Assembly (NCBI GenBank): GCA_016215705.1
Contig: JACRIR010000093.1
Span: 1-21,990 of the forward strand
Direction of reading: 5' to 3'
DNA: 21,990 nucleotides
Source of the DNA: Candidatus Poribacteria bacterium
GTDB taxonomy: Bacteria > Abyssobacteria > SURF-5
A program made the position numbers and the translations under genes. This document shows, in pieces, positions 5,664 to 21,759 of the stretch. Under the pieces are notes generated by a model, which was not told where the DNA came from, did no database searches, and saw nothing but the letters and a program-made list of their open reading frames with translations. Position 1 is the first letter of the stretch, and each line of letters starts with the position of its first letter.

Positions 5664-6869
5664 ATGGCGCGAATCGTAATTAAAGAGAGAGGTCTCGAAA
5701 CAAAAAGCTTGTCGCTCGGAAGCGGCAGCGTTACCATAGGACGGACGTCAAAGAACGACATCGTCCTCAATAACCGATACGTTTCGGGACGCCATTGTGA
5801 AATCGTGTACGAAAATAATGGGTATACGGTCATTGATCTCAAGAGCACCAATGGAGTGTTTGTCAACGGGCACAAAGTTGAGAGCAAGAAACTAGATGAC
5901 GGAGATCGCCTGCTTGTAGGAGCAGGCCTCTTGATATACGTTGCGAATGAGCAGGCCATAAAGACGGAAACCCTTATGACTCAGTTGGAAAACGGCTCGG
6001 CTGATGAGCGCGAACTCGCCGCCAACCTGCTCGGACAGTTTGGCACTCTTGCGGCTTCGAACGCATTGCTGTCCGCCTTGAGTAATGACCTCGACCCGAA
6101 AGTTAAGGCGGCGGCGGCCGAAGCGCTCGGGCTGCTGGGCGATTCTCGGGCCGTGCGTGCGCTTCTCGGTTATTTCGACACCAGCGATGTCTTGCTGCGG
6201 AATTCAGTGGTCCGATCGCTGGTCAGGATTGCGGATGACAAGACAATCGACGGCATTGCGGCGTTTCTGAAGCACGAGGACAGCAAGATTCGAGTTCTTG
6301 CTGCGTATACCCTCGGCCGAACGCGCAACACCAACGCCACACAACACCTCGTGGATGCGCTCAACGACGAAACATACGCCGTGCGTGAGGCCGTCATTAA
6401 AGCCTTGGGTGATATCGAAGACGCAAGAGCATTAAGCGCTTTGACACAGGCCGCAAACGACCCTCACCGTTTTCCACAGTTGTGGGTGATTGAATCGCTG
6501 GGAAGAATCCGAAGCCCGGAGGCATTGCCCGTGATAATAAAAGCGCTCAAAGACCCCGGTCCCGAAGTGCGCGAGGCCGCAGCAGCAGCTCTCGGAAAAC
6601 TGCGGGCCACCGAGAGTGCGCGGCCGCTTATTTCAGCGCTTGCCGACCCGGACCAACGCGTCCGCAAGGCGGCATCCATATCGCTCGAAAAGATTCGTAC
6701 GCACGTGGAAATGGGAAAAAGCTTTTCGTCATCTCATGGACGGGACACGAAGACGATGCACATATCCAGGATTGGCGAAAGTGAAGAAGGTGAATCAGGC
6801 GCCCCGCTTTTCGGCGAAGACCGGGCGAAATGGCTGAAATGGTGGATGGAACAGCAGGCGCAGAAATGA
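5664..6869 (+). CDS. FHA-domain plus HEAT-repeat protein
   Basis: A 401-residue cytoplasmic protein. Residues 1-95 form a forkhead-associated domain that would bind phosphothreonine peptides; the key residues are present (Gly26-Arg27, Ser41/Arg43/His44 and Ser61-Thr62-Asn63-Gly64). From about 105 to 350 there are about seven HEAT/PBS-lyase-type repeats with recurring A..AA.ALG.L.D.RA patterns, a protein-interaction scaffold. The C-terminus (about 350-401) is polar and not recognised. No signal peptide or membrane helix is seen. It lies between a membrane protein and a HIT protein in one apparent operon. It is probably a phospho-dependent adaptor, but neither the kinase nor the target can be read from the sequence. 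The kinase-fold protein at 11894-12871 is the only kinase candidate in the window apart from the histidine kinase. Confidence 0.85.
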   Translation: MARIVIKERGLETKSLSLGSGSVTIGRTSKNDIVLNNRYVSGRHCEIVYENNGYTVIDLKSTNGVFVNGHKVESKKLDDGDRLLVGAGLLIYVANEQAIKTETLMTQLENGSADERELAANLLGQFGTLAASNALLSALSNDLDPKVKAAAAEALGLLGDSRAVRALLGYFDTSDVLLRNSVVRSLVRIADDKTIDGIAAFLKHEDSKIRVLAAYTLGRTRNTNATQHLVDALNDETYAVREAVIKALGDIEDARALSALTQAANDPHRFPQLWVIESLGRIRSPEALPVIIKALKDPGPEVREAAAAALGKLRATESARPLISALADPDQRVRKAASISLEKIRTHVEMGKSFSSSHGRDTKTMHISRIGESEEGESGAPLFGEDRAKWLKWWMEQQAQK

Positions 6870-8808: not shown

Positions 8809-9567
8809 ATGAACGAAGCAGGATATATCTACGGACGCCGGACAGTGGCGGAGACGCTCCGATCATCTGCAAGCCGTGTGAACAAGGTTCTCATAGCGGA
8901 AGGAGCGCATGGCGACGTAATTGATGAAATCCGCCGGTTGGCCAACCAGAACAGAGTGGTAATGAAGTTCATGCCCCGGCGGGCCCTTGAAAAATATGCG
9001 CCCGAGGCAGTGCATCAAGGTGTGATCGCTTCGGTGACGCCGGTCGACTACGCCGAGCCGGAAGAAGTGATGCAGGCGCGCAAAGGTGAAAAGCCGGCCC
9101 TGGTAGTCGTGCTTGACGGCATCACGGACCCGCAGAACTTCGGCGCAATACTCAGGACCGCCGAAGCAGCGGGCGCAAGCGGCGTAATGATTCCTCGTCA
9201 CAGGTCGGTGGCGCTGACTTCGGTTGTAGCCAAGCATTCGGCCGGCGCCGTCCAGTATATTCCGGTCGCAAGAGTGGCAAACACCGCAATGACAGTCGAC
9301 CACCTGAAGGAAAACGGAGTGCAGGCGGTCGGAACGGCGGGTGACGCGGAAAGAACGATCTACGAAATCGATTTCTTGTTGCCAACGGCAATAATCATTG
9401 GAAGCGAGGGCACAGGGCTGAGGCCATTGGTTCGCCGCAAATGCGATCACATGGCGCGCATCCCGATGTTGGGGAAGATTTCCTCACTCAATGCAAGCGT
9501 GGCTGCAGCAGTAATTCTTTATGAGGCCGTCCGACAGAGAGTCGGTTCAGCCGGACAGCCCACCTAG
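8809..9567 (+). CDS. rlmB: RlmB/TrmH-family rRNA 2'-O-methyltransferase
   Basis: A 252-residue SpoU-class methyltransferase that probably makes Gm2251 in 23S rRNA using S-adenosylmethionine. It has an N-terminal substrate-binding domain starting YIYGRRTVAETL, then the trefoil-knot motifs: DGITDPQNFGAILRTAEAAG (motif 1), IIIGSEGTGL (motif 2) and ISSLNASVAAAVILYEAVRQR (motif 3; the last residues are abbreviated from the full stretch). I prefer the ATG at 8809, which has AGGGG five to six bases upstream, over the ATG at 8788. The gene ends in a CTAG palindrome that also provides the stop of the convergent response regulator, so the two genes overlap by 4 bases. The exact methylation site is not provable here; TrmH-like tRNA activity is the alternative. 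Confidence 0.9.
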   Translation: MNEAGYIYGRRTVAETLRSSASRVNKVLIAEGAHGDVIDEIRRLANQNRVVMKFMPRRALEKYAPEAVHQGVIASVTPVDYAEPEEVMQARKGEKPALVVVLDGITDPQNFGAILRTAEAAGASGVMIPRHRSVALTSVVAKHSAGAVQYIPVARVANTAMTVDHLKENGVQAVGTAGDAERTIYEIDFLLPTAIIIGSEGTGLRPLVRRKCDHMARIPMLGKISSLNASVAAAVILYEAVRQRVGSAGQPT

Positions 9568-10352
9568 AGTCCCAGATTGCCAATCTCGTTCTCGAAATCC
9601 GTCGGAGCAACATGAAGGAGCCACCCTCTCCCCCGCGGCTCTTCCCGGATAAGCCCCACATTTTCGACTGCTTCACGATTTACTGATAGAACACGTCCGC
9701 TGAGTGGGGCGCGAAGATTAAAGACTCGCATATTCGCGTTCGTTATCGCCCCGAACGGGAAGCCTTGAAAAACACTTGCGCCAGTTGCCGAAATCTCGAT
9801 GCTCAACGGTTCGCCGATATCGCGCAGAAAACTCTCCTCAACGCCGAAATACATCGTTCCGTCAGAGAGTATTCGCGCATATGTCTGATTGAAGAAACTC
9901 CGATATTCTCTGAGTTTCGCCCCATCAACGGGGCCTCCGGAGAGCGACTCCTCAGCCGCCTTCACAGACGCTCTCCCTATACGGGCGGCATTCTTGACAA
10001 CGTTGCGTAACTCCTCTCTTGTGAAAGGCTTGGCGATGTAGTCGAAGGCCCCCTTGCGCAGAGCCTGCAAGGCCGTCCGCATCGTGGCGTAGCCGGTGAT
10101 CATTATGACCTTCGTTTGAGGGTCTGTCTGACTGATGCGATCTATGAACTGCAGCCCGTCAATATTAGGCATCATCAGATCGGTAATCACAATGTCGTAG
10201 CTCTTCCGGCCCATGAGGTCAAGCCCCTCAGTGGCTGACAGAACGGCGTCAACAAGAAATTCATGCTCCTCGTCCGTCTTGAGAACTTTGCGAACGCTTT
10301 GCAGCACAACTTCTTCGTCGTCAACGACTAGAACATTGATTATTGCAGGCAT
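9564..10352 (-). CDS. Response regulator: CheY receiver fused to a GcvH-like domain
   Basis: A 262-residue two-domain protein. Residues 1-125 are a receiver domain with acidic pair Asp11-Asp12, phosphoacceptor Asp58 (ITDLMMP), Thr86 and Lys108. Residues about 165-262 resemble the glycine-cleavage H protein: YFGVEESFLRDIGEPLSIEI, then APLSGRVLSVN, then an EEPRGRGWLLHVAPTD stretch close to the conserved H-protein C-terminus. By alignment to PxSG, the lipoyl-lysine position is Met208, so lipoylation in the normal place is not possible. No DNA-binding domain is present, so the output is probably protein interaction or an altered carrier function. The gene is last in the kinase-HK-RR cassette, 15 bases after the histidine kinase. 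Confidence 0.85.
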   Translation of the reverse strand: MPAIINVLVVDDEEVVLQSVRKVLKTDEEHEFLVDAVLSATEGLDLMGRKSYDIVITDLMMPNIDGLQFIDRISQTDPQTKVIMITGYATMRTALQALRKGAFDYIAKPFTREELRNVVKNAARIGRASVKAAEESLSGGPVDGAKLREYRSFFNQTYARILSDGTMYFGVEESFLRDIGEPLSIEISATGASVFQGFPFGAITNANMRVFNLRAPLSGRVLSVNREAVENVGLIREEPRGRGWLLHVAPTDFENEIGNLGL

Positions 10353-10367
10353 CGGCTACCCTCCGAT

Positions 10368-11888
10368 TCAGGTTGCCGCGTCAGCGGCGGGCCGGGCGGA
10401 TTTCTCCCACGGCATGAAAATCCGAAATGTCGTTCCTTCCCCAAGTTTCGACTCAACTTCGAGTCGTCCTCCATGCTGGTTTATTATGCTCCAACTCACG
10501 GCCAGGCCAATCCCCATCGACTTTCCTCCCTTGGTCGAGAAGAACGGCTCGAATATCTGAGGCAGATGTTCGGCGGAAATCCCGCGGCCGTTGTCCTTGA
10601 CGGTCACCTCAACCTCACGGGTACGGGGAAGCACGGCGGAGGCGATCACTATCTTGCCGCCGTCAGGCATTGCCTCGCATGCGTTCACCAGCAGGTCCAA
10701 CACCACTTGTTCCAATTGAACAGGGTCGGCTGTCACGGCCGGCAGATTCTCTCGGAGTTCGGTCTCGATGGTGACATTGCGGAAGACTGCCTGTTTCGAG
10801 ACAAACTTGACGGTATGAGACAGGACCTCGTTCATGTCGACCGGCTCGAAATTGGGCTTGTCCTGCCGCGAGAAGTCCAACAGTTGCCTGACGATTTCGC
10901 GGCATCGGATAGCTTCTCGCCGGATGACTCGGTAATCCGGCAAAAGCGGATCGTTAGCCTGAGCGTTGTCGACCAGGTCCTCGGCAAACGTGAGAATACC
11001 CGTCAGTGGGTTATTGATCTCATGGGCGACTGAGGCGGAAAGTTTTCCGATGGAAGCCAGTTTTTCGATCATGATTAACTGTCGCTGGCTCGATAGCAGC
11101 TTCTCCTGCATCTTGTTGAATGCGCGGGAAAGCTCTCCAAGCTCTGCTTCACCGACAGGGATGACATGACCCATCTCGCCGTCGGCCACTCGACGCGTTC
11201 CGTCCAATAGGTCCTTCACCGGTCTCGAAACCCACCTACGGATAAGAAGAAGCACAACCAGCGAAGTCGCCAACGCAATCAGGATCGAAAGCATGATAAG
11301 ACGCTTGTGAGATTGGCTCAATGACTCGTCGATGCTCGCATACGAGACATCCAACTGCATAATCCCCAGCACCGTCTCATCGGCCCTGTGCACATGGCAG
11401 GCCCCGCCATAGCATTCGGGGGCATTGTAGATCGGAAGCCAGACCTTGGCGACTTTCGACTCTTCGCTGAGATGAAAGTGCGCGCTGGCAGGCAATCGCT
11501 TCAATGGCGCCTCTTTGTTGATGTGACACCCGGAGCACCGCGCATCGTCTATGGGAATCGACAGGCCGTGCGGAGAATCACTCGAGTAAACAGGTTTTCC
11601 GGCGTGGGTAACCAACGTGGCTGACCTGATATCATATTCCGTCACGAGCTGCCTGATAGCAGACTCTATCTCGCCTCGCCGATTCTCAAGCATGCTGTAG
11701 TGAAGAACACGCTCGAGAGACTTGCACATGTTGAGACATGTCCGAACAAATATATCCATAGACTCCTTGCGCTGGCTCATCAGACTAAAAATCGTGAACG
11801 AGCCTGACGAGACGACCAGCAACGCTGCTACCATAATGGCAAGGCGAATGCCTATGCCGATACGTTTCTTGATGCGCAAGAGTCCCAA
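10368..11888 (-). CDS. Sensor histidine kinase with periplasmic CxxCH motifs
   Basis: A 506-residue membrane kinase. Transmembrane helices lie near 14-36 and 197-216, enclosing a periplasmic domain of about 160 residues. In it, Cys118-Ser-Gly-Cys121-His122 is a classic c-type heme motif, and Cys159-x4-Cys164-His165 fits the rarer CX4CH form. A HAMP domain follows (about 217-270), then HisKA with His289 (SVAHEINNP) and a HATPase with the N box (VNACEA, 402-406), DNGRG (432-436), FEPFF and GIGLAVS. The start is TTG at 11888, supported by AGGA 8 bases upstream; the next in-frame ATG (11834) would cut into the first helix. It lies 5 bases after the kinase-fold gene and 15 before the response regulator, its likely partner. 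Heme attachment is inferred, not shown. Confidence 0.9.
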   Translation of the reverse strand: MGLLRIKKRIGIGIRLAIMVAALLVVSSGSFTIFSLMSQRKESMDIFVRTCLNMCKSLERVLHYSMLENRRGEIESAIRQLVTEYDIRSATLVTHAGKPVYSSDSPHGLSIPIDDARCSGCHINKEAPLKRLPASAHFHLSEESKVAKVWLPIYNAPECYGGACHVHRADETVLGIMQLDVSYASIDESLSQSHKRLIMLSILIALATSLVVLLLIRRWVSRPVKDLLDGTRRVADGEMGHVIPVGEAELGELSRAFNKMQEKLLSSQRQLIMIEKLASIGKLSASVAHEINNPLTGILTFAEDLVDNAQANDPLLPDYRVIRREAIRCREIVRQLLDFSRQDKPNFEPVDMNEVLSHTVKFVSKQAVFRNVTIETELRENLPAVTADPVQLEQVVLDLLVNACEAMPDGGKIVIASAVLPRTREVEVTVKDNGRGISAEHLPQIFEPFFSTKGGKSMGIGLAVSWSIINQHGGRLEVESKLGEGTTFRIFMPWEKSARPAADAAT

Positions 11889-11893
11889 AGAAG

Positions 11894-12871
11894 CTATCCT
11901 CGCGTAACGCCGGGCATTTCATCTAATGCCGAGCTGACATCAGAAATAATTTGAGCCATTGACTCATAGAATCGTGTCGTGCTAACCGTGAAATGCAGTA
12001 GTATGTCGTTCAGTCGGTCGGGAATATACGGAAAAAGTTTCTGAAGATTCATGATTCTGTGTTCATAAAACGCGGAAGCATCGCCGGGCGTCAGCCTATT
12101 CCTGACGGATTCAGGAAACTCAGTCGATTGAAATACTTCGCGAAACGTTACCATCCCCATGCCCACACAAAACTGCAAAATATTGCCGATGCTCCAGATG
12201 TCCAGGTCTGAGAAATCCTGCGCCAGGTCAAAATCGATCCAGCGATATTGCCCCGTGTCCTGTTCAACCAGAATATGATCATTTCGGATATCCCCGTGGC
12301 ACAGCCCATTCTCGTGCAGGAACCGCACCGCCTTAAAGCATTCATTCAGATTCCGCAAGATTTCGGGAAACACTGTGTGGAAGTACTCTTCGTGCGACAT
12401 CTTCATCTCAAATATCATGTTGTAGAGATTCTTGCCCCTTATGATGTCCAGGGCGCGAACTTCATTGCCACTGCCGTCAAATAGGGCGCGTCCCTGCATG
12501 AAGTACGGGTTGCCTCGGACGAGTTCCAGCACCTGGCCTTCTTTGTGCGGATTCCTGTAGCACCGAATTCTCAGAGGTCCTATCCGCATGTGGAACTCTT
12601 CGCGGTGCGCCAGCTTCACGATTTGACGGACACCGGTCTTGAGGTCAATCGCCTTCTTCACCCAATACTTCGGCTCGTCGCTCAAGCCGAATCGCGCCTC
12701 ATAGATGTAACCTGTCACAAGGAAATATTGCCCGTCCAGTCGGATTACGTGCCCACGGCTGATATTCATGAATTCAGTGGTGTCCGTGATGACTTCGAGA
12801 CGATCGGGAACGAGCCCGTCGGTCACCTGCATGATTCGCTCACGGAGCCACGTCTGGTCGCACTCGTTCAT
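11894..12871 (-). CDS. Kinase-fold (Ser/Thr kinase-like) protein
   Basis: A 325-residue soluble protein with a protein-kinase-like core. The catalytic loop is His192-Gly-Asp194-Ile-Arg-Asn197 (HGDIRNDHILV), and the metal-binding motif is Asp213-Phe-Asp215 (WIDFDL) in place of DFG. SDLDIWSIGNIL follows, matching the subdomain IX Asp-x-Trp-x-x-Gly. A candidate ATP lysine is Lys86 (QIVKLAHREEF), with no clear glycine-rich loop. Residues 1-60 contain a strand-rich segment I do not recognise. No membrane helix is seen. It is the first gene of the cassette, 5 bases from the histidine kinase, with a likely promoter at 12953-12982. Protein kinase activity is plausible; small-molecule phosphotransfer (APH-like) is the alternative. 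Confidence 0.8.
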   Translation of the reverse strand: MNECDQTWLRERIMQVTDGLVPDRLEVITDTTEFMNISRGHVIRLDGQYFLVTGYIYEARFGLSDEPKYWVKKAIDLKTGVRQIVKLAHREEFHMRIGPLRIRCYRNPHKEGQVLELVRGNPYFMQGRALFDGSGNEVRALDIIRGKNLYNMIFEMKMSHEEYFHTVFPEILRNLNECFKAVRFLHENGLCHGDIRNDHILVEQDTGQYRWIDFDLAQDFSDLDIWSIGNILQFCVGMGMVTFREVFQSTEFPESVRNRLTPGDASAFYEHRIMNLQKLFPYIPDRLNDILLHFTVSTTRFYESMAQIISDVSSALDEMPGVTRG

Positions 12872-12952
12872 TATAGCATCCCAGGAAGAGAATAGTTGCG
12901 CGCAAAATAAGATTCATAGAGAATTGCCAAATCGCTGGAATCCCGGCGGGGG

Positions 12953-12982
12953 ATTATAGCAGGACTTTGGAGCAAATAGCAA
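12953..12982 (-). promoter_or_regulatory. Extended -10 promoter for the kinase/HK/RR cassette
   Basis: On the minus strand: TTGCTA (12977-12982), an 18-base spacer and TATAAT (12953-12958) preceded by TGC, an extended -10 element. The predicted transcription start is about 75 bases ahead of the start codon at 12871. It lies between the REP-like hairpin and the cassette, so the cassette can be transcribed apart from dsr. Confidence 0.55.
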
Positions 12983-13001
12983 AACTTCGGAGGGAAAGCG
13001 T

Positions 13002-13035
13002 CATGTAGGAGCGGTTTGCGAACCGCTCCTACATG
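13002..13035. repeat. REP-like perfect hairpin between dsrP and the regulatory cassette
   Basis: Two perfect 15-base arms (13002-13016 and 13021-13035) flank the loop TGCG. The arm contains GTAGGAGCGGTT, the type of sequence seen in repetitive extragenic palindromes. There is no T-run on either side, so it is not a standard intrinsic terminator, but such hairpins can stabilise or end upstream transcripts. It lies 80 bases after the dsrP stop. The rest of the 243-base gap (12872-13114) holds the promoter at 12953-12982 and nothing else I can name. Confidence 0.85.
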
Positions 13036-13114
13036 CAAATCCAAATCGCGAAATGATCTCAAGAAGAAAGATTCTCGGGGCGTACGACCGAATGCCGGTT
13101 TCTCTATGACAGCA

Positions 13115-14269
13115 TCAGGCCGCCTCTTCCTTCACTGAAATTGCCACCTTGTACAGAACGGTGAGAATCAAAAAGCCTATTCCGCAGACACCGAGCGTGA
13201 TCATAATCTCGGGTCCCGTGGGTGAGTATTCGGTTATTCTCTCAAGGGGGTTCGGTATGAATCCGCCTACTACAAGGCCCATCCCCTTATCAATCCATGT
13301 TGATGCAAAAACTGAAAGACAAGCCAAAGCGAGCACGCTCTCGTTCTTCCGCGTGCCCGGATTGACCAGCAGAGCGATTGCGACAATAGCGAGCACACCG
13401 GCCACGCGCATCCAAGGGACCAATCTTCCATGCCCTTCAAGACCAAAGAAGAGATACTCGAGCGAGTGCTTGTGAGCGGGTATTCCACTGTAGAAAGCGG
13501 TAAACAGCTCGAGACCCACGAAAAAAACGTTGAGAATCATTCCGTAGGTAACAATCTTCGCCAACGTCTGGATCGGCTCTTTGCCCGGGTCAAACCTGGA
13601 GAGCTTTCGCACCAGGAGACACAAGATAATGAGAAGCGACGGCCCGGATGCGAACGCCGACGCGAGGAAGCGCGCCGCCATGATGGCGGTAAGCCAGAGA
13701 TGCCTTCCTGGAAGGCCGGCATAAAGAAAGGCCGTGACCGTATGAATGCTGACTGCCCATGGGATCGAGAGGTATATCAAGGGCTTGACCCATGCAGGAG
13801 GATGAACTCCGTTGCGTTCCGCCTGCAAGGTGTTCCAGCCGATTATGATATTGAGAAACAGATATCCGCTCAGCACCGTTAAGTCCCAGAACATGACCGA
13901 ATTGGGAGTCGGATATAGCATAACATTAAGGGCGCGGAACGGCTGCCCCATATCCACGAATACAAAAAGCATGCACATGATCACCGATGGAACGGCCAGA
14001 AACTCGCCCAAAATAGTAATTTTGCCGAACGCTTTGTAGTCGTGCAAGTAGTACGGCAAAACGACCATAACTGCCGAGGCCGCTACGCCGACAAAAAATG
14101 TCAACTGGGCAATGTACAAGCCCCATGAGATATCTCTGCTGAGCCCCGTCAATCCCAGGCCATAGCTCAACTGACGGAGGTAGAAGAAGAAGCCTACCCC
14201 GATAAGGGCGAGCAGGAAGAACACCCACACATAGTACCTTCGACTTCCGACAAGCGCCTTTTCTAACAT
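13115..14269 (-). CDS. dsrP: DsrP, NrfD-like membrane subunit of DsrMKJOP
   Basis: A 384-residue integral membrane protein with about ten helices, of the NrfD/PsrC type. It probably exchanges electrons with the quinone pool and passes them to DsrO. Recognisable stretches include SRRYYVWVFFLLALIGVG at the N-terminus, LSRDISWGLYIAQLTFFVG and GLVVGGFIPNPLERITEYSPT near the end; the last is a typical NrfD-family loop. The start at 14269 has GAGG six bases upstream and gives MLEKALVGSRRYYVW; an earlier frame start at 14344 would run into dsrO. The gene is 7 bases after dsrO and last of the dsrTMKJOP operon. Confidence 0.93.
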   Translation of the reverse strand: MLEKALVGSRRYYVWVFFLLALIGVGFFFYLRQLSYGLGLTGLSRDISWGLYIAQLTFFVGVAASAVMVVLPYYLHDYKAFGKITILGEFLAVPSVIMCMLFVFVDMGQPFRALNVMLYPTPNSVMFWDLTVLSGYLFLNIIIGWNTLQAERNGVHPPAWVKPLIYLSIPWAVSIHTVTAFLYAGLPGRHLWLTAIMAARFLASAFASGPSLLIILCLLVRKLSRFDPGKEPIQTLAKIVTYGMILNVFFVGLELFTAFYSGIPAHKHSLEYLFFGLEGHGRLVPWMRVAGVLAIVAIALLVNPGTRKNESVLALACLSVFASTWIDKGMGLVVGGFIPNPLERITEYSPTGPEIMITLGVCGIGFLILTVLYKVAISVKEEAA

Positions 14270-14276
14270 AGCCACC

Positions 14277-15062
14277 TCACACGATATAGTAGACTTGGGG
14301 ATTCGTCCCGAGTTCAGGTTTGCGCCGAATGCTGAAATTCGCACTAAGAATTTGTCTTACCTGCGAATCGGCGTCTTCCATGTCGCCAAAGACCATCGCC
14401 TTCTGCGGGCACACCTCGACACACGCGGGAATCTGCCCTCGAGCAAGCCGCTCATTGCAGAAATTGCATTTCTCGACGACTCCCTGCGTCCGTGTCGGGA
14501 ATTCCTGGTTCAACTCCTTGATGAAAGGACGCGGGTCCCTCCAGTTGAAACTGCGGGAACCATAGGGGCACGCGGCCATACAGAACCTGCATCCGATGCA
14601 CCGATGGAAGTCCATCATCACGATCCCGTCTTTTCTCTTCCATGTAGCCTTGGTTGGACAAACTCGCACGCACGGCGGATTCTCGCAATGATTGCAGAGC
14701 ACCACAACAGGCTTGTTCTTCAAGGTCTCAACCATGTGCTCGTTTTCGTCGCTCGGGAACGCATGTTCGTACTGCTCGTTCCATATCCATTTGATCTCAT
14801 CTTTCGGATTGCCGAAATCCGGAACGTTGTGGACGCGATGGCATGCCTCCCTGCACTTTGTGCACCCGTTGGGCGCTTCCAGACATTTCTTCAGATCGAC
14901 GACCATCGCCCACTTGCTTCCAACCAGGGCCGCCTCACCGGCCAGAACCTGCGCAGCCCCGGTCTCGTCTTCCGAGAGCGCAACGACAGCCGCCTTGCCT
15001 CCCGCCCCGAGGACCGTGGCAAGACCGGCTATCCTCAAGAATTCTCTCCTGTTGACGTTCAT
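14277..15062 (-). CDS. dsrO: DsrO, periplasmic ferredoxin-like subunit
   Basis: A 261-residue iron-sulfur protein of the DsrMKJOP complex. The N-terminus has a twin-arginine export signal (NRREFLRIAGL), so it should be folded with its clusters and exported to the periplasm. Cysteine groups typical of four-cluster ferredoxin subunits are seen: CTKCREAC, CNHCENPPCVRVC, CIGCRFCMAAC and CNFCNERLARGQIPACVEVC. It would carry electrons between DsrJ or DsrP. The ATG at 15062 overlaps the dsrJ stop by one base (TGATG), implying translational coupling; a GTG at 15065 is the alternative start. GGAG lies 8 bases upstream of the ATG. Confidence 0.93.
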   Translation of the reverse strand: MNVNRREFLRIAGLATVLGAGGKAAVVALSEDETGAAQVLAGEAALVGSKWAMVVDLKKCLEAPNGCTKCREACHRVHNVPDFGNPKDEIKWIWNEQYEHAFPSDENEHMVETLKNKPVVVLCNHCENPPCVRVCPTKATWKRKDGIVMMDFHRCIGCRFCMAACPYGSRSFNWRDPRPFIKELNQEFPTRTQGVVEKCNFCNERLARGQIPACVEVCPQKAMVFGDMEDADSQVRQILSANFSIRRKPELGTNPQVYYIV

Positions 15063-15445
15063 CACTTATTCTCCTTCGGCTCGTTATGGCACTGCCAGCA
15101 GGTCAATCTCACTCCCAAGGAATTGTGGCATTGGTCGCAGAACTCACTCTTGTTCGAGTGACACTTTGTGCACGTGTTAGAGAGGCTCTTCTCGTAACTT
15201 CTGCCGTCATGTGAAACATAAACTCTATCGCCGTTGCGCACAACCGAGGTCCTCCACTCATTCAGGAGGCTCATGTGAGAAGCTCGCATGTAATCCGTTG
15301 GCGCTACACACTGCTTCTCTTGAGTAACGATCTTGAGCTCGGGCTTATATGCGGCCTCCCCGCTGGCCAGATTCGACCAAATGGGAAAAGTTACGAGAAC
15401 AAGGAAGATGATTAACCCGGTAAGGATTTTGCCGGCGTCATACAT
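15062..15445 (-). CDS. dsrJ: DsrJ, triheme cytochrome c subunit
   Basis: A 127-residue periplasmic cytochrome anchored by an N-terminal helix (about 7-24). Three CxxCH motifs are present: Cys92-His96 (CTKCH), Cys103-His107 (CDQCH) and Cys116-His120 (CWQCH). Cys46, in QCVAPTDYMRASHM, matches the conserved cysteine known in this family as distal ligand of an unusual His/Cys heme. The start at 15445 follows a GGTGAG-type site and lies one base after the dsrK stop; a longer frame from 15508 would add 21 basic residues overlapping dsrK and is rejected. Its role is electron transfer within DsrMKJOP or contact with a periplasmic sulfur compound; the true substrate is unsettled in the literature. Confidence 0.95.
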   Translation of the reverse strand: MYDAGKILTGLIIFLVLVTFPIWSNLASGEAAYKPELKIVTQEKQCVAPTDYMRASHMSLLNEWRTSVVRNGDRVYVSHDGRSYEKSLSNTCTKCHSNKSEFCDQCHNSLGVRLTCWQCHNEPKENK

Positions 15446-15446
15446 C

Positions 15447-17066
15447 TCACTCACCCCCCTTTCCCGCGAGAGGTTCACCGCGCATATCCGTTTCTCTCGC
15501 CTTTTCACCTTTCATCACAAGCGCGTTGCCGACAAGCTCGTGAATGCCGCCGATGCCGACGTCCGGCACCCAGTATTCGATAAGCGGCGTGAGGACAGCC
15601 TTGTCGATTGCGCATATGCAGAGAAGCAAGTTGACGTCATGCTTCTCGTGAACATACTTCACTGCATTCGCCCGGGGGAACCCTCCTCTGAGTCTCATTT
15701 CTAAGTTCTCATCGGTACCCAATCCGGACCCGCTCCCGCAGCAGAAGGTCTGTTCCTTTATGGTATTCTCAGGCATCTCGAAGAAGTAATTGGCGACGTT
15801 ATTGATTATGTAGCGCGGCTCCTCAATGAGCCCCATGGCTCTGGCAGGATTACAGGAATCATGGAACGTCACCCGCCGGTGGTCATTCCTGCTCTTGTCC
15901 AACTTCAATTCGTTATTCCGGATAAGGTCGGAGGTGAACTCCGTTATGTGAACCATTTTTGTGGATTTCGCATTCTCGAATCTGGTCCCGGTTATCGGCG
16001 AGACCGGCTCCTGCAGGAAATCGGCCGGGCCGTTCATCGTATCCATGTACTGATGGAGGACCCTCCACATATGGCCGCACTCCCCGCCAAGAATCCATTT
16101 TACCTTCAGTCGCTTCGCTTCGGCATATATTTTGGCGTTGAGTCGCTTCATCATTTCGTGGGACTGGAACAAACCGAAGTTCCCGCCCTCCGATGCGAAT
16201 GTGCTCCAAGTGTAATCGAGTCCGATCTCGTGAAACAGGGCGAGATAACCCAAAAGGGTGTAGTAATGCGGCGAAGCAAAGTAGTCTGCCGACGGAGTGA
16301 CGAAAAGAATCTCCGCGCCCTTCTTGTTGATGGGCGCCTCGACCCGGATGCCCGTTATATCCTCAAGGTCGTCCACGGCGAACTCTATGCTGTCTTTAAA
16401 GCCGTGCGGCTGAACCCCTAAGTGATTCCCCATCCTGAAACAGTTCGACGCCGGTTCGAGAATCCAGTTGATGTTGCAGCCGACAAGGTTGAGCAGTTCT
16501 CGAGCCATCATCGTGATTTCGGCAGTGTCGATGCCGTAGGGACAGAAAACCGAGCACCGGCGACATTCGGTGCACTGGAAGAAATAGTAGAACCACTCTT
16601 TGAGCACGTCCTCGGTGAGTTCTCTTGCGCCGCCAAGTTTGCCAAGAATCTTTCCGGCCATGGTGAAATCGTTCCTGTAGACGGACCTGAGAAGCTCTGC
16701 CCGCAAGACCGGCATGTTTTTCGGATCGCCTGACCCGATAAAGAAGTGGCACTTATCAGCGCAGGCGCCGCACCTGACACATATATCCATGAAAAGCCGG
16801 AAGGAACGGAACTTCGAGAGCCTGTCCTTGAAGCCCTCGTGTATTATTTCCTTCCAATTCTCGGGCAGTTTCCAGTCGGCGTCTGCCGGCGACCACTCAC
16901 GGGGGTTGGCAAAACCGAGATAGTCAACAAACTTCGGCTTGGCGGGGTAACACCATGTGCCCGGCTTGAACTTCACGGGCGTGTCCATCCACCCCTTTGC
17001 AGGAGTCTTGTAATCCACCTGCGCTAACTGCTCCGGCTTCGGAAAATCTTTTGGAATGTCTGACAT
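15447..17066 (-). CDS. dsrK: DsrK, HdrD-like catalytic iron-sulfur subunit
   Basis: A 539-residue cytoplasm-facing subunit, related to heterodisulfide reductase HdrD, thought to reduce the DsrC trisulfide. Two [4Fe-4S] ferredoxin-type motifs are at Cys96/99/102/106 (CVRCGACADKC) and Cys165/168/171/175 (CTECRRCSVFC). A CCG-type site that would hold the special catalytic cluster has Cys330 (GGECGHMW), Cys405 (HDSCNPARAMG) and Cys442-Cys443 (CCGSGSG). These fit the DsrK pattern. The gene starts 2 bases after dsrM and is followed directly by dsrJ. Confidence 0.95.
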   Translation of the reverse strand: MSDIPKDFPKPEQLAQVDYKTPAKGWMDTPVKFKPGTWCYPAKPKFVDYLGFANPREWSPADADWKLPENWKEIIHEGFKDRLSKFRSFRLFMDICVRCGACADKCHFFIGSGDPKNMPVLRAELLRSVYRNDFTMAGKILGKLGGARELTEDVLKEWFYYFFQCTECRRCSVFCPYGIDTAEITMMARELLNLVGCNINWILEPASNCFRMGNHLGVQPHGFKDSIEFAVDDLEDITGIRVEAPINKKGAEILFVTPSADYFASPHYYTLLGYLALFHEIGLDYTWSTFASEGGNFGLFQSHEMMKRLNAKIYAEAKRLKVKWILGGECGHMWRVLHQYMDTMNGPADFLQEPVSPITGTRFENAKSTKMVHITEFTSDLIRNNELKLDKSRNDHRRVTFHDSCNPARAMGLIEEPRYIINNVANYFFEMPENTIKEQTFCCGSGSGLGTDENLEMRLRGGFPRANAVKYVHEKHDVNLLLCICAIDKAVLTPLIEYWVPDVGIGGIHELVGNALVMKGEKARETDMRGEPLAGKGGE

Positions 17067-17068
17067 CT

Positions 17069-18055
17069 CTACTCCTTCTCCAGAGGTAATCCGGCCGCTT
17101 TCATCTTTTCCCTGAAATCATCCTCATACTCTTCATACGTATGTACCTTGACGGGATAATTCCAGGGGTTGATGTGCCTCTGCATCCGATTGTTGTTGGC
17201 CAGGTTTCTCGTAGGACTGAGGAAGACTCCGCCCATATGCATAAGCTTGCTGAACGGGAAATAGGCAAAAAGAACGCTCACAAGAAACAGATGGATATAG
17301 AAAATAGGGCCAATACCTTGCGGAATAACGGGCCGCAACGTCGCCAACCCCATTGTCAACTCCTTGACGCCAATAAGGTTGACCCTGACAAAGTAACGCA
17401 TAAGGATGCCGCTAACCGCTACTCCCAGAATCAGGAAAAGGGGAAAATAGTCGGCGGCAAGCGAGATATATCTCACCTGCGGAATAAGTACCCTTCTTAG
17501 GAAAAGATAGGTGGCGGCCGCAACAATTGCGAGGTCAGTCAAATAGAGCATCGGGAGCCCGACCTGAAAGAGCCCGTCCATGGTCTCAATCAAATTCACA
17601 AAGGCAGGCGAGGGCTCGGCAAAGAACCTCAAATGCCTGAGTAATATGACGAGAAACGAGTAGTGGAACACGATTCCGGCAAGCCAGAGCCACTTGTCCG
17701 ACATGTGAATGAGCCTCGGACCTTCCCTCAGCTCCGCTTTCGTATTCCTGAAAAGCGAACGGAACAGGAATATCTCGAGCGCCATCCTGCCTATGACGCC
17801 TGCGGTGTTGTACGGGCTTTCAAGGTTGTTGGACTTGATCCAGGGAAGAGACTTTTGTTGCCCGCACGTTGTGGGTATGCGGAAAGGAACAGGAGAACGC
17901 GCCCATTTCAGGATGCGATAGACAACGCCCACGAGGAAGATTGCAAGCGCCGCATAAGGAATCACAACCCCGAAGAGCAAGGTGAATTTCGCAGCCCCCG
18001 CAAAGGCGATGACCACGAGCGCTGTCACTGCGAAGAGGGAAAACAAGACTGTCAT
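17069..18055 (-). CDS. dsrM: DsrM, NarI-like cytochrome b subunit
   Basis: A 328-residue membrane protein with about six helices, of the NarI/HdrE type, which binds b hemes and oxidises or reduces menaquinone. Histidines in helices that could ligate heme are in FHYSFLVILLRHLRFF and in the segment IHLFLVSVLFAYF followed by SKLMHMGGVF. The C-terminus (NPWNYPVKVHTYEEYEDDF) is soluble and typical of DsrM. It probably pairs with DsrK, the electron-accepting module. It lies 16 bases after dsrT and 2 before dsrK. Confidence 0.95.
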   Translation of the reverse strand: MTVLFSLFAVTALVVIAFAGAAKFTLLFGVVIPYAALAIFLVGVVYRILKWARSPVPFRIPTTCGQQKSLPWIKSNNLESPYNTAGVIGRMALEIFLFRSLFRNTKAELREGPRLIHMSDKWLWLAGIVFHYSFLVILLRHLRFFAEPSPAFVNLIETMDGLFQVGLPMLYLTDLAIVAAATYLFLRRVLIPQVRYISLAADYFPLFLILGVAVSGILMRYFVRVNLIGVKELTMGLATLRPVIPQGIGPIFYIHLFLVSVLFAYFPFSKLMHMGGVFLSPTRNLANNNRMQRHINPWNYPVKVHTYEEYEDDFREKMKAAGLPLEKE

Positions 18056-18071
18056 TTACGGTTACCTCGCT

Positions 18072-18626
18072 TCATTTTTTCTTTTCAACGTTGTCGCCTT
18101 CCGACCCCGGATTGAGATCGGGAACCTCCGATATCAGGTTTGCTCTTTCCAAAAGTTTGAATGTCCTATTTTTCACCTCGTTTGCTCTCAACTCATAAAC
18201 CTTCTCTCGGCATTTCATGTATATGTCAAACGAGAGAAGCGCCAGTTCATCTATTCTGGACTCAAGAGCCAACAACTCGCGCGCGACCTCTTCGTCGCGC
18301 ATCTCATCTTTCAACTCCTCTCGAATCGCTTTCTTCAGTGAAAAAACGAAGGCAACACCTTGAGAAGGAGAGAAATCCTGGATCGCCCTGATTCTGATGA
18401 TCGTGTCAAGAAACGGAGAAACCTTATCCGGACCCTCACTCTGGACGAGTCCGTCATAAATGCCTTCGATCCCCTGGGAAATAGTGTTCCCCACGGGATT
18501 GGCAAAGCGGTCCTTCTGCCTCTTCAAGAAGCTTGAGGTGTCAGCAGGATAGGTATCCAAAATCAGTTGGAACCATCTTTCGACAATCGCAGACCGCTTC
18601 CGTGATAAGAGATTCTCCAACTTCAT
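18072..18626 (-). CDS. dsrT: DsrT-like protein with an RsbRD N-terminal-type domain
   Basis: A 184-residue soluble, mostly helical protein. Residues about 1-155 (MKLENLLSRKRSAIVERWF, then LKRQKDRFANPVGN and later LLALESRIDELALLSFDIYM) resemble the RsbT co-antagonist RsbRD N-terminal domain, seen elsewhere as a sensory fold. The C-terminus is charged. A gene of this kind directly upstream of dsrM is common in sulfate reducers and green sulfur bacteria and is called dsrT. Its function is unknown. It heads the dsrTMKJOP operon here. The ribosome-binding site is weak. The symbol rests on position and overall character rather than a motif. Confidence 0.75.
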   Translation of the reverse strand: MKLENLLSRKRSAIVERWFQLILDTYPADTSSFLKRQKDRFANPVGNTISQGIEGIYDGLVQSEGPDKVSPFLDTIIRIRAIQDFSPSQGVAFVFSLKKAIREELKDEMRDEEVARELLALESRIDELALLSFDIYMKCREKVYELRANEVKNRTFKLLERANLISEVPDLNPGSEGDNVEKKK

Positions 18627-19001
18627 ACTGGAATCAACTCAGATAGCAGAGCCAACTTAAGTATACGACGCCACCGTCTCTTGGCGCTGTAACCGGGCAT
18701 ACATTCAAATTATTCAATGGAAGGCCGCCCACCCGCCGCCGACTCACGACGGCGACCGGTCGGCGCCGACAGGCGCTACGGCGTCCGGAGCAGACAGCAA
18801 CGCCTTTCCAGCCGCAACATCCTTCCCTTTTCACGTGCCCATAGTGTCGCAAACCCTCAACGACACACCTTAAGAGAAGATGCGCGGCGGGGCTGTGGAA
18901 AAAGCGCTGAGTCCCCTCCGCCGAAACTCGTAGCGGAGCGCCCCTGTAACGCTTCAAATCCTGCGGTCCCGCAGCGCCTGCGTCCCGCTCTGTTACATGA
19001 A
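18620..19001. other. 382-base gene-free, palindrome-rich region between dsrC and dsrT
   Basis: No gene can be supported. The only open frame (minus, 18634-18957) is arginine/serine-rich and has no family features. Inverted repeats seen: GTCGGCGCCGAC (18759-18770, perfect 12-base palindrome), GACCGGTC (18754-18761), GTGTCG/CGACAC with an 11-base loop (18844-18866), and a CTGCG/CGCAG hairpin (about 18961-18974) just past dsrC with no T-run. No consensus sigma70 promoter was found ahead of dsrT. The first bases overlap the dsrT start. The region may hold transcript-processing or operator sites. Confidence 0.5.
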
Positions 19002-19319
19002 CTACACGCAGCCAGTCGGCTTCGGCAGGCCGGCTATCTTGCAGGCGCCTTTTGCCGGACCCGACGGGAACAACTCATAAATCCGCTTCAGATTGCAGTC
19101 AGTCTCCTTGCAGAGCTTGCGAATCATCGGCGCGACGCCGAACTTCAAATAGTAGTCGCGAATGTACCGGACCACTTTCCAGTGCTCTTCCGTCATTTCT
19201 GTGATTCCTTCGGTGGGCGCAAAGTCTTTTGCGACCGCCTCGTCCCACTGTTCGGGATTCTGCAGGAATCCATCCTCATCGACGTCAAAGTTCTTTCCTG
19301 CTAATAGAATCTGTCCCAT
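19002..19319 (-). CDS. dsrC: DsrC, sulfur-carrier protein
   Basis: A 105-residue DsrC with both active cysteines, Cys93 and Cys104, in the C-terminal arm (KGACKIAGLPKPTGCV). It takes up the sulfur from DsrAB sulfite reduction as a trisulfide between these cysteines and is reduced by DsrMK. The body contains EEHWKVVRYIRDYYLKFG and MIRKLCKETDCNLKRIYELFP, typical of DsrC/TusE. The ATG at 19319 has AAGGA about 8 bases upstream and yields the usual MGQILLAGKNFDVDEDG opening; a frame start at 19343 would add 8 extra residues. It follows the nitrilase-like gene by 63 bases and is followed by the long palindrome-rich gap. Confidence 0.97.
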   Translation of the reverse strand: MGQILLAGKNFDVDEDGFLQNPEQWDEAVAKDFAPTEGITEMTEEHWKVVRYIRDYYLKFGVAPMIRKLCKETDCNLKRIYELFPSGPAKGACKIAGLPKPTGCV

Positions 19320-19382
19320 TCTTCTGTTCCTTTCTAGAACCAATAGCCCTGACCTTACCCTAGATATACCATGAATCGCTTC

Positions 19383-20306
19383 TCATGAGTCTGAAACCGT
19401 CCGAGCCTTTGCTGCGCCCTCGGGCGGTTTCGCCTCGAAAAAGCAATTACTACTATGAGTCCGTTCGAGAAGGCTTTCGTCCATGGGCGCCACAAGGCCT
19501 GAGTACAACTCAGGACGCCGGTGCGCCAGAAAAAAGCCCATTCTCGTTTCCCGAGTTTTCCTCAACAAGTCGGATTTCAACTCGGCGACTATCATCCGCT
19601 CTTCGGCGCCGGAGGTTTCGGCGATAATCTCGCCTCTCGGATCAAGAGCCAGCGCCACTCCTGCGAAACGGATTCCTGCGCCTCCGTCACCTGTTTGATT
19701 ACAAGCAACAACGAACACGCTGTTGTCATATGCCCGCGCAGCCAGATAGCGCAGCCAGCGATTCTTTTTCTCGTCGGCCGATTCCGGTGGCGGCGAGGCA
19801 TGCGGCATAAAAATCACTTCGGCGCCCTTGAGCGCCATGATGGAGCTCAACTCCGGGAAATGGGCGTCATAGCAAAGCTGCACTCCGAACATGGCTTCCC
19901 CATATCTGAAAAGCGGAATATCGCAGCCCGCCTGAAAAAAAGCCTGTTCGCCCAGCGACAGATGCAGTTTCCGATATGTGCTCATGGAACCATCGGGCAA
20001 AGCGACTACCTGCGTGATCGCTATTCCATTTCCTTCAGTCTTTTCAGCCAGACCCGCGAGTATCGCGACATTGTGGCGGGAGGCCATGTGGCGCACTTCA
20101 TTCGCGCTCGGCCCCGGCACAGACTCGGCATATTTGGCAACTTCTTCCTTCAAGGCGTATCCCGTAATGTTCATCTCGGGGAAACAGACAACGTCAACTC
20201 CTTGCTCGGCGGCTTGACCCGCAAAATGCTCCATTCTGGCGAGGTTCCTCTCAATTTCCCCGAAACCCGAGCGCATGACGACCGCCGCCACCCGCAGATC
20301 GTTCAT
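19383..20306 (-). CDS. Carbon-nitrogen hydrolase (nitrilase-superfamily amidase)
   Basis: A 307-residue nitrilase-superfamily enzyme with the Glu-Lys-Cys triad: Glu44 (FPEMNITGY), Lys113 (YRKLHL) and Cys145 (QLCYDAHFPE), plus the second glutamate (Glu120). Family members hydrolyse amides or nitriles, or transfer amide nitrogen. A C-terminal tail of about 45 residues (from RPELYSGLVAPMDES) is longer than usual. It starts at 20306, where the reading gives MNDLRVAAVVM. An earlier frame start at 20393 would overlap dsrN and has a non-family N-terminus. It lies 22 bases after dsrN and 63 before dsrC, so it is probably part of the dsr operon. The substrate is unknown. Confidence 0.85.
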   Translation of the reverse strand: MNDLRVAAVVMRSGFGEIERNLARMEHFAGQAAEQGVDVVCFPEMNITGYALKEEVAKYAESVPGPSANEVRHMASRHNVAILAGLAEKTEGNGIAITQVVALPDGSMSTYRKLHLSLGEQAFFQAGCDIPLFRYGEAMFGVQLCYDAHFPELSSIMALKGAEVIFMPHASPPPESADEKKNRWLRYLAARAYDNSVFVVACNQTGDGGAGIRFAGVALALDPRGEIIAETSGAEERMIVAELKSDLLRKTRETRMGFFLAHRRPELYSGLVAPMDESLLERTHSSNCFFEAKPPEGAAKARTVSDS

Positions 20307-20328
20307 TCCGTCCAAACCCCGCCTGCAT

Positions 20329-21759
20329 TCACAGTGCCTCTCCCCTACTGCCGGCGCCCGCCGCGCAAGTCTTGTATGACGATGCCGCATCAACCATCAC
20401 TCTTGCCCAATTCTTTTCCCCAAGAGCATGAATATGGCAAAACGAAGCGAGAACGTTCTTGCGGACTAGTCCGTCCCGACCCGAATCAAAGCCATAGCCC
20501 CGCTTCACATTGAACACTGTCGTCACTTCTTCGTGCCTATAGCCCGACACTCGAGCGTAGTGGAACTCATGACCTCGCAAAACGGTTCCCTTGCTGAAGA
20601 ACGGGTTCTGCCCATCCGTCTCGAAAACGACATATCCGTGTCCTTGTGGCTTCTCTCCGATCGAGAAATTGACCGGGAACACGCCGGCCATTGGATACGT
20701 CTTGCCTCCAAACTCGACGGACTCCCCGAGATATATCAGTCCGCCACACTCGGCGTATACCGGTAAGCCCTCCTCGATCTCGCGGCGCAAAGATGCCCGA
20801 AAACTTGCATTCTCCGCCAATTCTTGCGCATGCGTTTCAGGAAACCCACCACCGATATAAAGCGCATCCACTTGTGGCAACGTTCGTTCGCGCAGACCGC
20901 TGATTTCAACCAGTTCTGCTCCATGTCGCTCGAGCGCCTCAAGATTCTCCGGATAGTAAAATGTAAAGGCCGAGTCGCGGAACACACCTATGCGGGGCGC
21001 GACATCAGAGACAGCGACTGGTTCGGCGCACACGATAGAGGGCACGACAAACTCCGGAGAAGAGGCCGCAAGATTCCAAATCGCGTCAGCGTCGATGTTG
21101 TCTAGCATCGCCTTGTGAAGCCGCTCGAGGGCGTCAATAGCACGCGGATGCTCTTCCGGAGGCAGAAGCCCCAGATGGCGTTCCGAGAAGGGCAACCCCT
21201 TGATTCGGGGAATAGCGCCTAGAATAGGAACGCCCGTTTCCTTCTCGACGGAAGATCGAATGACCGACTCCTGTCTGATATTGGCCACTTGATTCAGGAT
21301 TACGCCACCGATATTGACTCCCTTGTCCAACATCTTGCAGCCAAGGACAAACGCGGCGACAGTGCGCGTTGCCTTTGTGCAATTCACCACAAGGACCACA
21401 GGCGCCTGGATCAGCTTGGCGAGCTCAGCCGTGCTGTGCGTGCCTTCTGCATCCATGCCGTCATAGAGCCCACGGTTTCCTTCCACCACCGCAACGTCGG
21501 CGGAACGGCTGTAAGCATCGAGACTCCAGAGAATATCGGCAGGCTGCATGAGAAACGTGTCAAGGTTATGACTCGGGCGACCCGCCGAAAGCGAGTGCCA
21601 CGCGGTATCAATATAGTCGGGCCCTTTCTTGAAGGGCGCGACGGTATACCCTTTCCTCCTCCAGATTTCGAGGAGTCCAAGCGTTGCAACCGTCTTGCCG
21701 GACCCGCCGCTCAATCCGCTCAATATTATCCGCGGACGTCTATGGAATCTTGCCTGCAT
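20329..21759 (-). CDS. dsrN: DsrN, CobB/CbiA-like siroheme amidase
   Basis: A 476-residue glutamine-dependent amidotransferase of the cobyrinic acid a,c-diamide synthase family. In dsr clusters this protein (DsrN) amidates siroheme for the sulfite reductase. The N-terminal ATPase domain has the P-loop GGSGKT (18-23), KGPDYID, and VVEGNRGLYDGM. The C-terminal glutaminase domain has GGGFPETHAQEL and the nucleophile Cys338 (YAECGG), with late His residues in RGHEFHYA. The length is usual for the family. AGGTG lies five bases before the ATG at 21759. A true cobyrinate substrate is possible, but no other cobalamin genes are nearby and dsrD lies directly upstream. Confidence 0.92.
   Translation of the reverse strand: MQARFHRRPRIILSGLSGGSGKTVATLGLLEIWRRKGYTVAPFKKGPDYIDTAWHSLSAGRPSHNLDTFLMQPADILWSLDAYSRSADVAVVEGNRGLYDGMDAEGTHSTAELAKLIQAPVVLVVNCTKATRTVAAFVLGCKMLDKGVNIGGVILNQVANIRQESVIRSSVEKETGVPILGAIPRIKGLPFSERHLGLLPPEEHPRAIDALERLHKAMLDNIDADAIWNLAASSPEFVVPSIVCAEPVAVSDVAPRIGVFRDSAFTFYYPENLEALERHGAELVEISGLRERTLPQVDALYIGGGFPETHAQELAENASFRASLRREIEEGLPVYAECGGLIYLGESVEFGGKTYPMAGVFPVNFSIGEKPQGHGYVVFETDGQNPFFSKGTVLRGHEFHYARVSGYRHEEVTTVFNVKRGYGFDSGRDGLVRKNVLASFCHIHALGEKNWARVMVDAASSYKTCAAGAGSRGEAL

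Follow-up and report, generated by a model that had tools for sequence, protein, structure and literature searches.

Several described signalling systems resemble parts of the three-gene set considered here, which we call KIN, HK and RR-GcvH and which lies behind dsrMKJOP in Candidatus Abyssubacteria. Classical histidine kinase-response regulator pairs with an AtoS/ZraS-like kinase core likewise have adjacent genes, HAMP, HisKA and HATPase_c domains, and a receiver with an invariant aspartate, but their output is DNA binding, whereas the regulator of the trio ends in a lipoyl-less GcvH-like domain and the unit includes a gene for a protein of Ser/Thr-kinase fold. The PknG-GarA/OdhI system is a precedent for post-translational control of central metabolism, and KIN shares the Hanks-type fold of PknG and the PknB-type kinases, which are among its best structural matches; it differs from them in having a catalytic histidine in place of asparagine, a two-component pair as partner and no demonstrated FHA substrate. 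The output domain of RR-GcvH is similar to the H protein of glycine cleavage in both fold and sequence, but it is fused to a receiver and the lipoyl lysine is not conserved. The sCache_heme sensors (DUF3365/Tll0287; Geobacter GSU0582 and GSU0935; PMC12889525) combine, as is predicted for HK, a periplasmic Cache-like domain carrying a c-type heme motif with HAMP and a histidine kinase. The Abyssubacteria HK differs by its two motifs, CxxCH and CX4CHxH, and Tll0287/DUF3365 was absent among the Pfam matches listed for 33 sensor members (E 0.1).

Control of dissimilatory sulfate reduction itself is poorly known, since two comparative dsr studies mention neither kinases nor response regulators: the words 'kinase' and 'response regulator' are absent from the main text of one large study, and 'kinase' and 'regulator' from that of the other (PMC10504309). 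The latter suggested DsrT, encoded next to dsrM, as a possible regulator of dsrMKJOP. The original prediction knew of no described system of this composition, and searches of open-licence papers for receiver-GcvH proteins, for CX4CH kinases and for dsrMKJOP together with a sensor kinase or response regulator likewise gave no description of the trio, a result whose open-licence scope makes it no proof of novelty. The trio offers a concrete candidate for such control, with a testable set of targets. Our preferred reading, which we hold to be slightly better than evenly poised, is that KIN, HK and RR-GcvH form one signalling module acting on dissimilatory sulfur respiration post-translationally and not on promoters.

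The window, i.e. the whole stretch of 21,990 nucleotides that was analysed, is an entire contig of a 5.47 Mb Ca. Abyssubacteria MAG, and a tRNA search found no tRNA genes in it. The gene order on the minus strand is a dsrN-like gene, a nitrilase, a small ORF, an RsbRD_N gene, dsrM-K-J-O-P, KIN, HK and RR-GcvH. The features upstream of the trio are:

20329..21759, minus strand: CobB/CbiA-type amidase, dsrN-like (profile match; the dsrN name is taken from context)
18072..18626, minus strand: RsbRD_N-domain protein adjoining dsrM (Pfam PF14361, 3e-22)
17069..18055, minus strand: dsrM (NCBIfam match)
15447..17066, minus strand: dsrK (NCBIfam match)
15062..15508, minus strand: dsrJ (NCBIfam match)
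14277..15065, minus strand: dsrO (NCBIfam match)
13115..14344, minus strand: dsrP (NF045798, 487 bits)
13005..13032, no strand: near-perfect palindrome of 28 bp between dsrP and KIN, GTAGGAGCGGTTTGCGAACCGCTCCTAC
12953..12982, minus strand: promoter-like site TTGCTA-18-TATAAT with extended -10

In the profile search of the window all five DsrMKJOP equivalogs exceeded the NCBIfam cut-offs. Judged by its position, the RsbRD_N gene is probably the dsrT of the literature. Like the trio, it is a regulatory-looking gene in the dsr neighbourhood; it belongs to another family and lies outside the trio.

The three genes of the trio and their domains are:

11894..12871, minus strand: KIN, protein-kinase-fold protein of 325 aa (ORF, Pkinase match, AlphaFold model, orthologues)
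12275..12298, minus strand: catalytic-loop-like motif HGDIRNDH of KIN (pattern HGDxRxDH)
10368..11888, minus strand: HK, membrane sensor histidine kinase of 506 aa with TTG start (sensor, HAMP, HisKA, HATPase_c; Pfam)
11523..11537, minus strand: CxxCH motif CSGCH of HK, residues 118-122
11394..11414, minus strand: CX4CH motif CYGGACH of HK, residues 159-165, followed by VH
10860..11048, minus strand: HisKA domain of HK (Pfam, 7e-13)
10407..10727, minus strand: HATPase_c domain of HK (Pfam, 7e-25)
9564..10352, minus strand: RR-GcvH, response regulator of 262 aa with C-terminal GcvH-like domain (Pfam)
9996..10334, minus strand: receiver domain of RR-GcvH (Response_reg, 2e-30)
9588..9884, minus strand: GcvH-like domain of RR-GcvH (GCV_H, 7e-11; no conserved lipoyl lysine)

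An ORF check placed the three genes where they had been proposed, with gaps of 5 and 15 bases between them. They had also been placed directly downstream of dsrP; this is right as to order, but a gap of 243 bp containing the palindrome and the promoter-like site separates dsrP from KIN. Read by eye, the element TGnTATAAT recurs in the corresponding gap of the two other Abyssubacteria genomes (G001 and G002), and in G001 a terminator-like stem follows dsrP. Because of the long gap, the promoter-like sites and this stem, it is more likely that the trio forms its own transcription unit than that it is co-transcribed with dsrMKJOP, against which the promoter-like sites in all three genomes and the stem in G001 argue. 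The 28-bp palindrome was unique to the gap of the window among all loci fetched.

The block from dsrN to RR-GcvH is syntenic in three Abyssubacteria genera (G000, G001 and G002), and since it is conserved at approximately 65-70% identity in the two other genera, the arrangement is not due to chance. When approximately 85,000 species genomes were scanned with KIN, 156 relatives came to light, and the survey was carried on with the best 80 of these. KIN, HK and RR-GcvH lay side by side in 26 of the 82 KIN loci counted by tblastn, and three further loci were cut by contig ends. The trio is thus conserved as a unit. In this set its carriers were mostly Zixibacteria and Kapabacteria, the full range being Abyssubacteria, Zixibacteria, Kapabacteria/Ignavibacteria, Calditrichota, Planctomycetota, Myxococcota, an FCB bacterium and one unassigned bacterium; in the KIN tree the trio clade largely follows phyla. 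An apparent KIN-HK fusion in a Planctomycetota locus (L048) turned out to be an out-of-frame read-through of separate genes. Outside the trio clade, KIN paralogues were seen at L003 (5153-6184), L015, L016 and L017 (Abyssubacteria and G025), several of them adjoining UspA-type genes, and a sequence search found a UspA-linked paralogue on contig C207 of G000.

The genomes with KIN were collected by the KIN sequence alone. DsrK was above cut-off in 25 of 27 such genomes compared to 0 of 14 control genomes, and dsrA was present in 31/31 KIN genomes from outside Abyssubacteria (28 above cut-off, three as partial matches). Among the latter are KIN genomes of Myxococcota, Planctomycetota, Acidobacteriota and Chloroflexota, phyla in which dsr is uncommon. 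FCB carriers of KIN that had been candidates for dsr-free organisms gave positive searches for both dsrK and dsrA. The 132 Zixibacteria genomes contained KIN in 26 and RR-GcvH in 26, with both in 24 (Fisher p 7e-22, kinship ignored). Twenty-six of the 28 Zixibacteria carrying either gene had DsrK, and the remaining two (G069 and G314) had dsrA matches, compared to DsrK in 24 of 104 non-carriers (either gene vs DsrK, p 1e-11, kinship ignored). The p values overstate the association, as they take no account of common descent and the KIN tree is largely arranged by phylum. In the class around G064 (Kapabacteria) DsrK was found in 7 of 149 genomes, and the only KIN carrier of the class is one of these seven. 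The trio predicts dsr, also in phyla where dsr is patchy, but dsr does not predict the trio, which is missing from the 24 dsr-bearing Zixibacteria non-carriers and from 6 of the 7 genomes in the class of G064. No tested carrier was without dsr, so that the scatter across dsr-free organisms that would have told against the original prediction was not seen, and the association with dissimilatory sulfur metabolism is real in these data and stronger than position alone had indicated.

Physical linkage gave a different picture. Adjacency of the trio to dsrMKJOP is confined to Abyssubacteria; elsewhere neither dsrMKJOP nor dsrA was found near KIN within the fetched stretches, save for DsrO-like ferredoxins of approximately 35% identity. 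In two single-contig genomes (G064 and G074) KIN is more than 1 Mb away from dsrK, and being unlinked when dsr is present, which had been named as evidence against a dsr-linked cassette, is the usual state outside Abyssubacteria. Other sulfur genes do adjoin parts of the trio. In Kapabacterium GH34 (G083) HK and RR-GcvH lie upstream of an IS-like transposase, sat, aprB, aprA, a qmoC-like gene and dsrAB, and in four related Desulfobacterota loci (L087, L089, L099 and L103) sat, identified by NCBIfam, immediately precedes KIN in the same orientation. It could be that the trio serves anaerobic stress or redox responses in general, that its co-occurrence with dsr stems from shared ancestry and lifestyle, and that it came to lie behind dsrP in Abyssubacteria by a local accident. 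We regard this as unlikely: the near-constant separation from dsr outside Abyssubacteria, the way trio-type KIN largely follows phyla and the UspA-type genes beside other KIN relatives (L003 included) would all fit it, but they are opposed by the 28 of 28 dsr-bearing carriers within Zixibacteria, by the dsrA of KIN genomes in phyla where dsr is uncommon, and by the independent linkages to sat, apr and dsr.

The kinase assignment of KIN is firm despite a weak and partial match to Pfam Pkinase (1.7e-7, just below the gathering score), because the AlphaFold model (pLDDT 93.6) has the full bilobal kinase fold and a structure comparison aligned it to PknB with Z 17.2 over 223 residues. The best structural matches were the Ser/Thr kinases PknB, PknI and PknG, as expected from the Ser/Thr-kinase-like protein first proposed. 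The catalytic and metal-binding aspartates are present, the patterns HGDxRxDH and [ILVMA]DF[DEG] being found in 79/79 relatives, and K86 and E111, candidates for the strand-3 lysine and the helix-C glutamate of a kinase, are invariant in their alignment; the catalytic-loop asparagine of Hanks kinases is replaced by histidine in all 79. On its model KIN is a protein of Hanks-type protein-kinase fold for which kinase activity is predicted. A quite improbable alternative is that KIN is a small-molecule kinase or an inactive pseudokinase of Kdo/APH type, functionally separate from an ordinary two-component pair beside it. It would explain the weak Pfam similarity to Kdo and APH, the histidine in place of asparagine, a replacement also found in Kdo/WaaP kinases, and the four genomes in which KIN and the HK-RR pair are on different contigs (G082, G083, G317 and G335), but not that KIN is co-inherited with RR-GcvH even where the two are apart (24 of 26 each shared), that the catalytic motif is kept in all 79 relatives, or that Ser/Thr kinases are the best structural matches.

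In RR-GcvH the receiver aspartate D58 is invariant in 20 sequences and the GcvH-like domain matches H proteins of the PDB at E 1e-18. At the lipoyl lysine site of these 20 sequences, the window has asparagine, L013 alone has lysine and most others have aspartate, so the receiver joined to a degenerate lipoyl-carrier fold stands as originally described. No DNA-binding domain was recognised in RR-GcvH, and such a receiver-GcvH protein would be a type of response-regulator output for which we found no description. Control of lipoate-dependent or one-carbon metabolism (glycine cleavage, Wood-Ljungdahl) by HK and RR-GcvH, in which the GcvH-like domain would bind the partners of H protein by mimicry, accords with the strong GcvH match but is more doubtful still, given the lack of a conserved lysine at the lipoyl site and of lipoate or gcv genes beside the trio in the annotated loci.

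For HK, the H-box histidine (H289) is invariant in the aligned sequences. Two CxxCH motifs had been claimed for its sensor; the first is CxxCH, but the second, approximately 41 residues away, is CX4CHxH (CYGGACHVH). In 33 sequences C118, C121 and H122 of the first and C159, C164, H165 and H167 of the second are invariant. The sensor model is Cache-like (mean pLDDT 77, pTM 0.56, with low confidence in the motif region) and resembles the Cache domains of WalK and CitA and the heme sensor GSU0935; a search of the PDB by sequence gave no relative of the sensor. Among the HKs of trios, the CxxCH sensor occurs only in the three Abyssubacteria and is thus not the defining part of the cassette that it had been taken for. 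In 25 other trio loci HK begins with a Rossmann-like domain, for which Pfam GFO_IDH_MocA gave weak matches (best E 0.004, range 0.004-0.02), followed in most by PAS domains (annotated for one, otherwise read from the alignment). The heme-motif sensor is no speciality of dsr loci either, relatives being present in 117 of 395 sampled genomes of Desulfobacterota (the phylum of Desulfacinum, a cultured carrier of KIN), and both CxxCH and CX4CH were found in 30/30 of the Desulfobacterota relatives examined. As the sensor type differs between lineages and is common elsewhere, the sensor appears exchangeable, with KIN, the kinase core and RR-GcvH being retained.

In the signalling module that we favour, HK would read the redox state, in Abyssubacteria through the periplasmic sensor with its two heme motifs and putative heme binding, and in other lineages through the Rossmann-like N-terminus, which perhaps binds NAD(H). 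HK would then phosphorylate RR-GcvH at D58, the GcvH-like domain would provide a surface for binding proteins and either switch KIN or be switched by it, and KIN may phosphorylate a component of the pathway or of its electron supply. The original prediction of a redox-sensing control module for sulfur respiration is thus upheld in its link to sulfur respiration, by co-occurrence and by the sat, apr and dsr linkages, while that it senses the redox state, how phosphorylation proceeds in it and which target it acts on are what we infer. Taken further, and tentatively, the trio may be an undescribed signalling system that is inherited along with dissimilatory sulfur respiration in several phyla, has interchangeable redox sensors, and gates the electron flow of the pathway post-translationally via a protein kinase and a GcvH-like switch devoid of lipoyl.

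As to the target, no dsrA match was obtained at E 1e-20 in the three Abyssubacteria genomes, and in SURF_5 and SURF_17 sat and aprAB were reported but dsrAB was not found (PMC6121073). DsrAB is therefore unlikely as the target in Abyssubacteria, and as these keep the trio without dsrA, a shared target, if there is one, is more likely to be DsrMKJOP, DsrT, the sat-Apr-Qmo branch or the quinone pool. The dsrN-like gene, the dsrT-like gene and dsrMKJOP (window 12872-21759) are likewise retained in these three genera, in which dsrA was not detected.

Further genes in these genomes recall parts of the trio. A cluster elsewhere in G000 (L177, contig C225, 23001-31797) brings together genes for a multiheme cytochrome, an Fe-S protein, an NrfD-like protein, a histidine kinase bearing the same CxxCH/CX4CH sensor and three GcvH-like proteins, each of which begins with a hydrophobic stretch, so that this sensor is again paired with GcvH-like domains; GcvH-like genes are also found near an NrfD-like gene in G001 (contig C86) and G002 (contig C8). 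Within the window, on the strand opposite to the trio, positions 5664-6869 encode an FHA domain fused to HEAT repeats, a gene that was not seen flanking the block in G001 or G002. FHA domains bind phospho-threonine, and the FHA-HEAT protein could thus partner with a Ser/Thr kinase.
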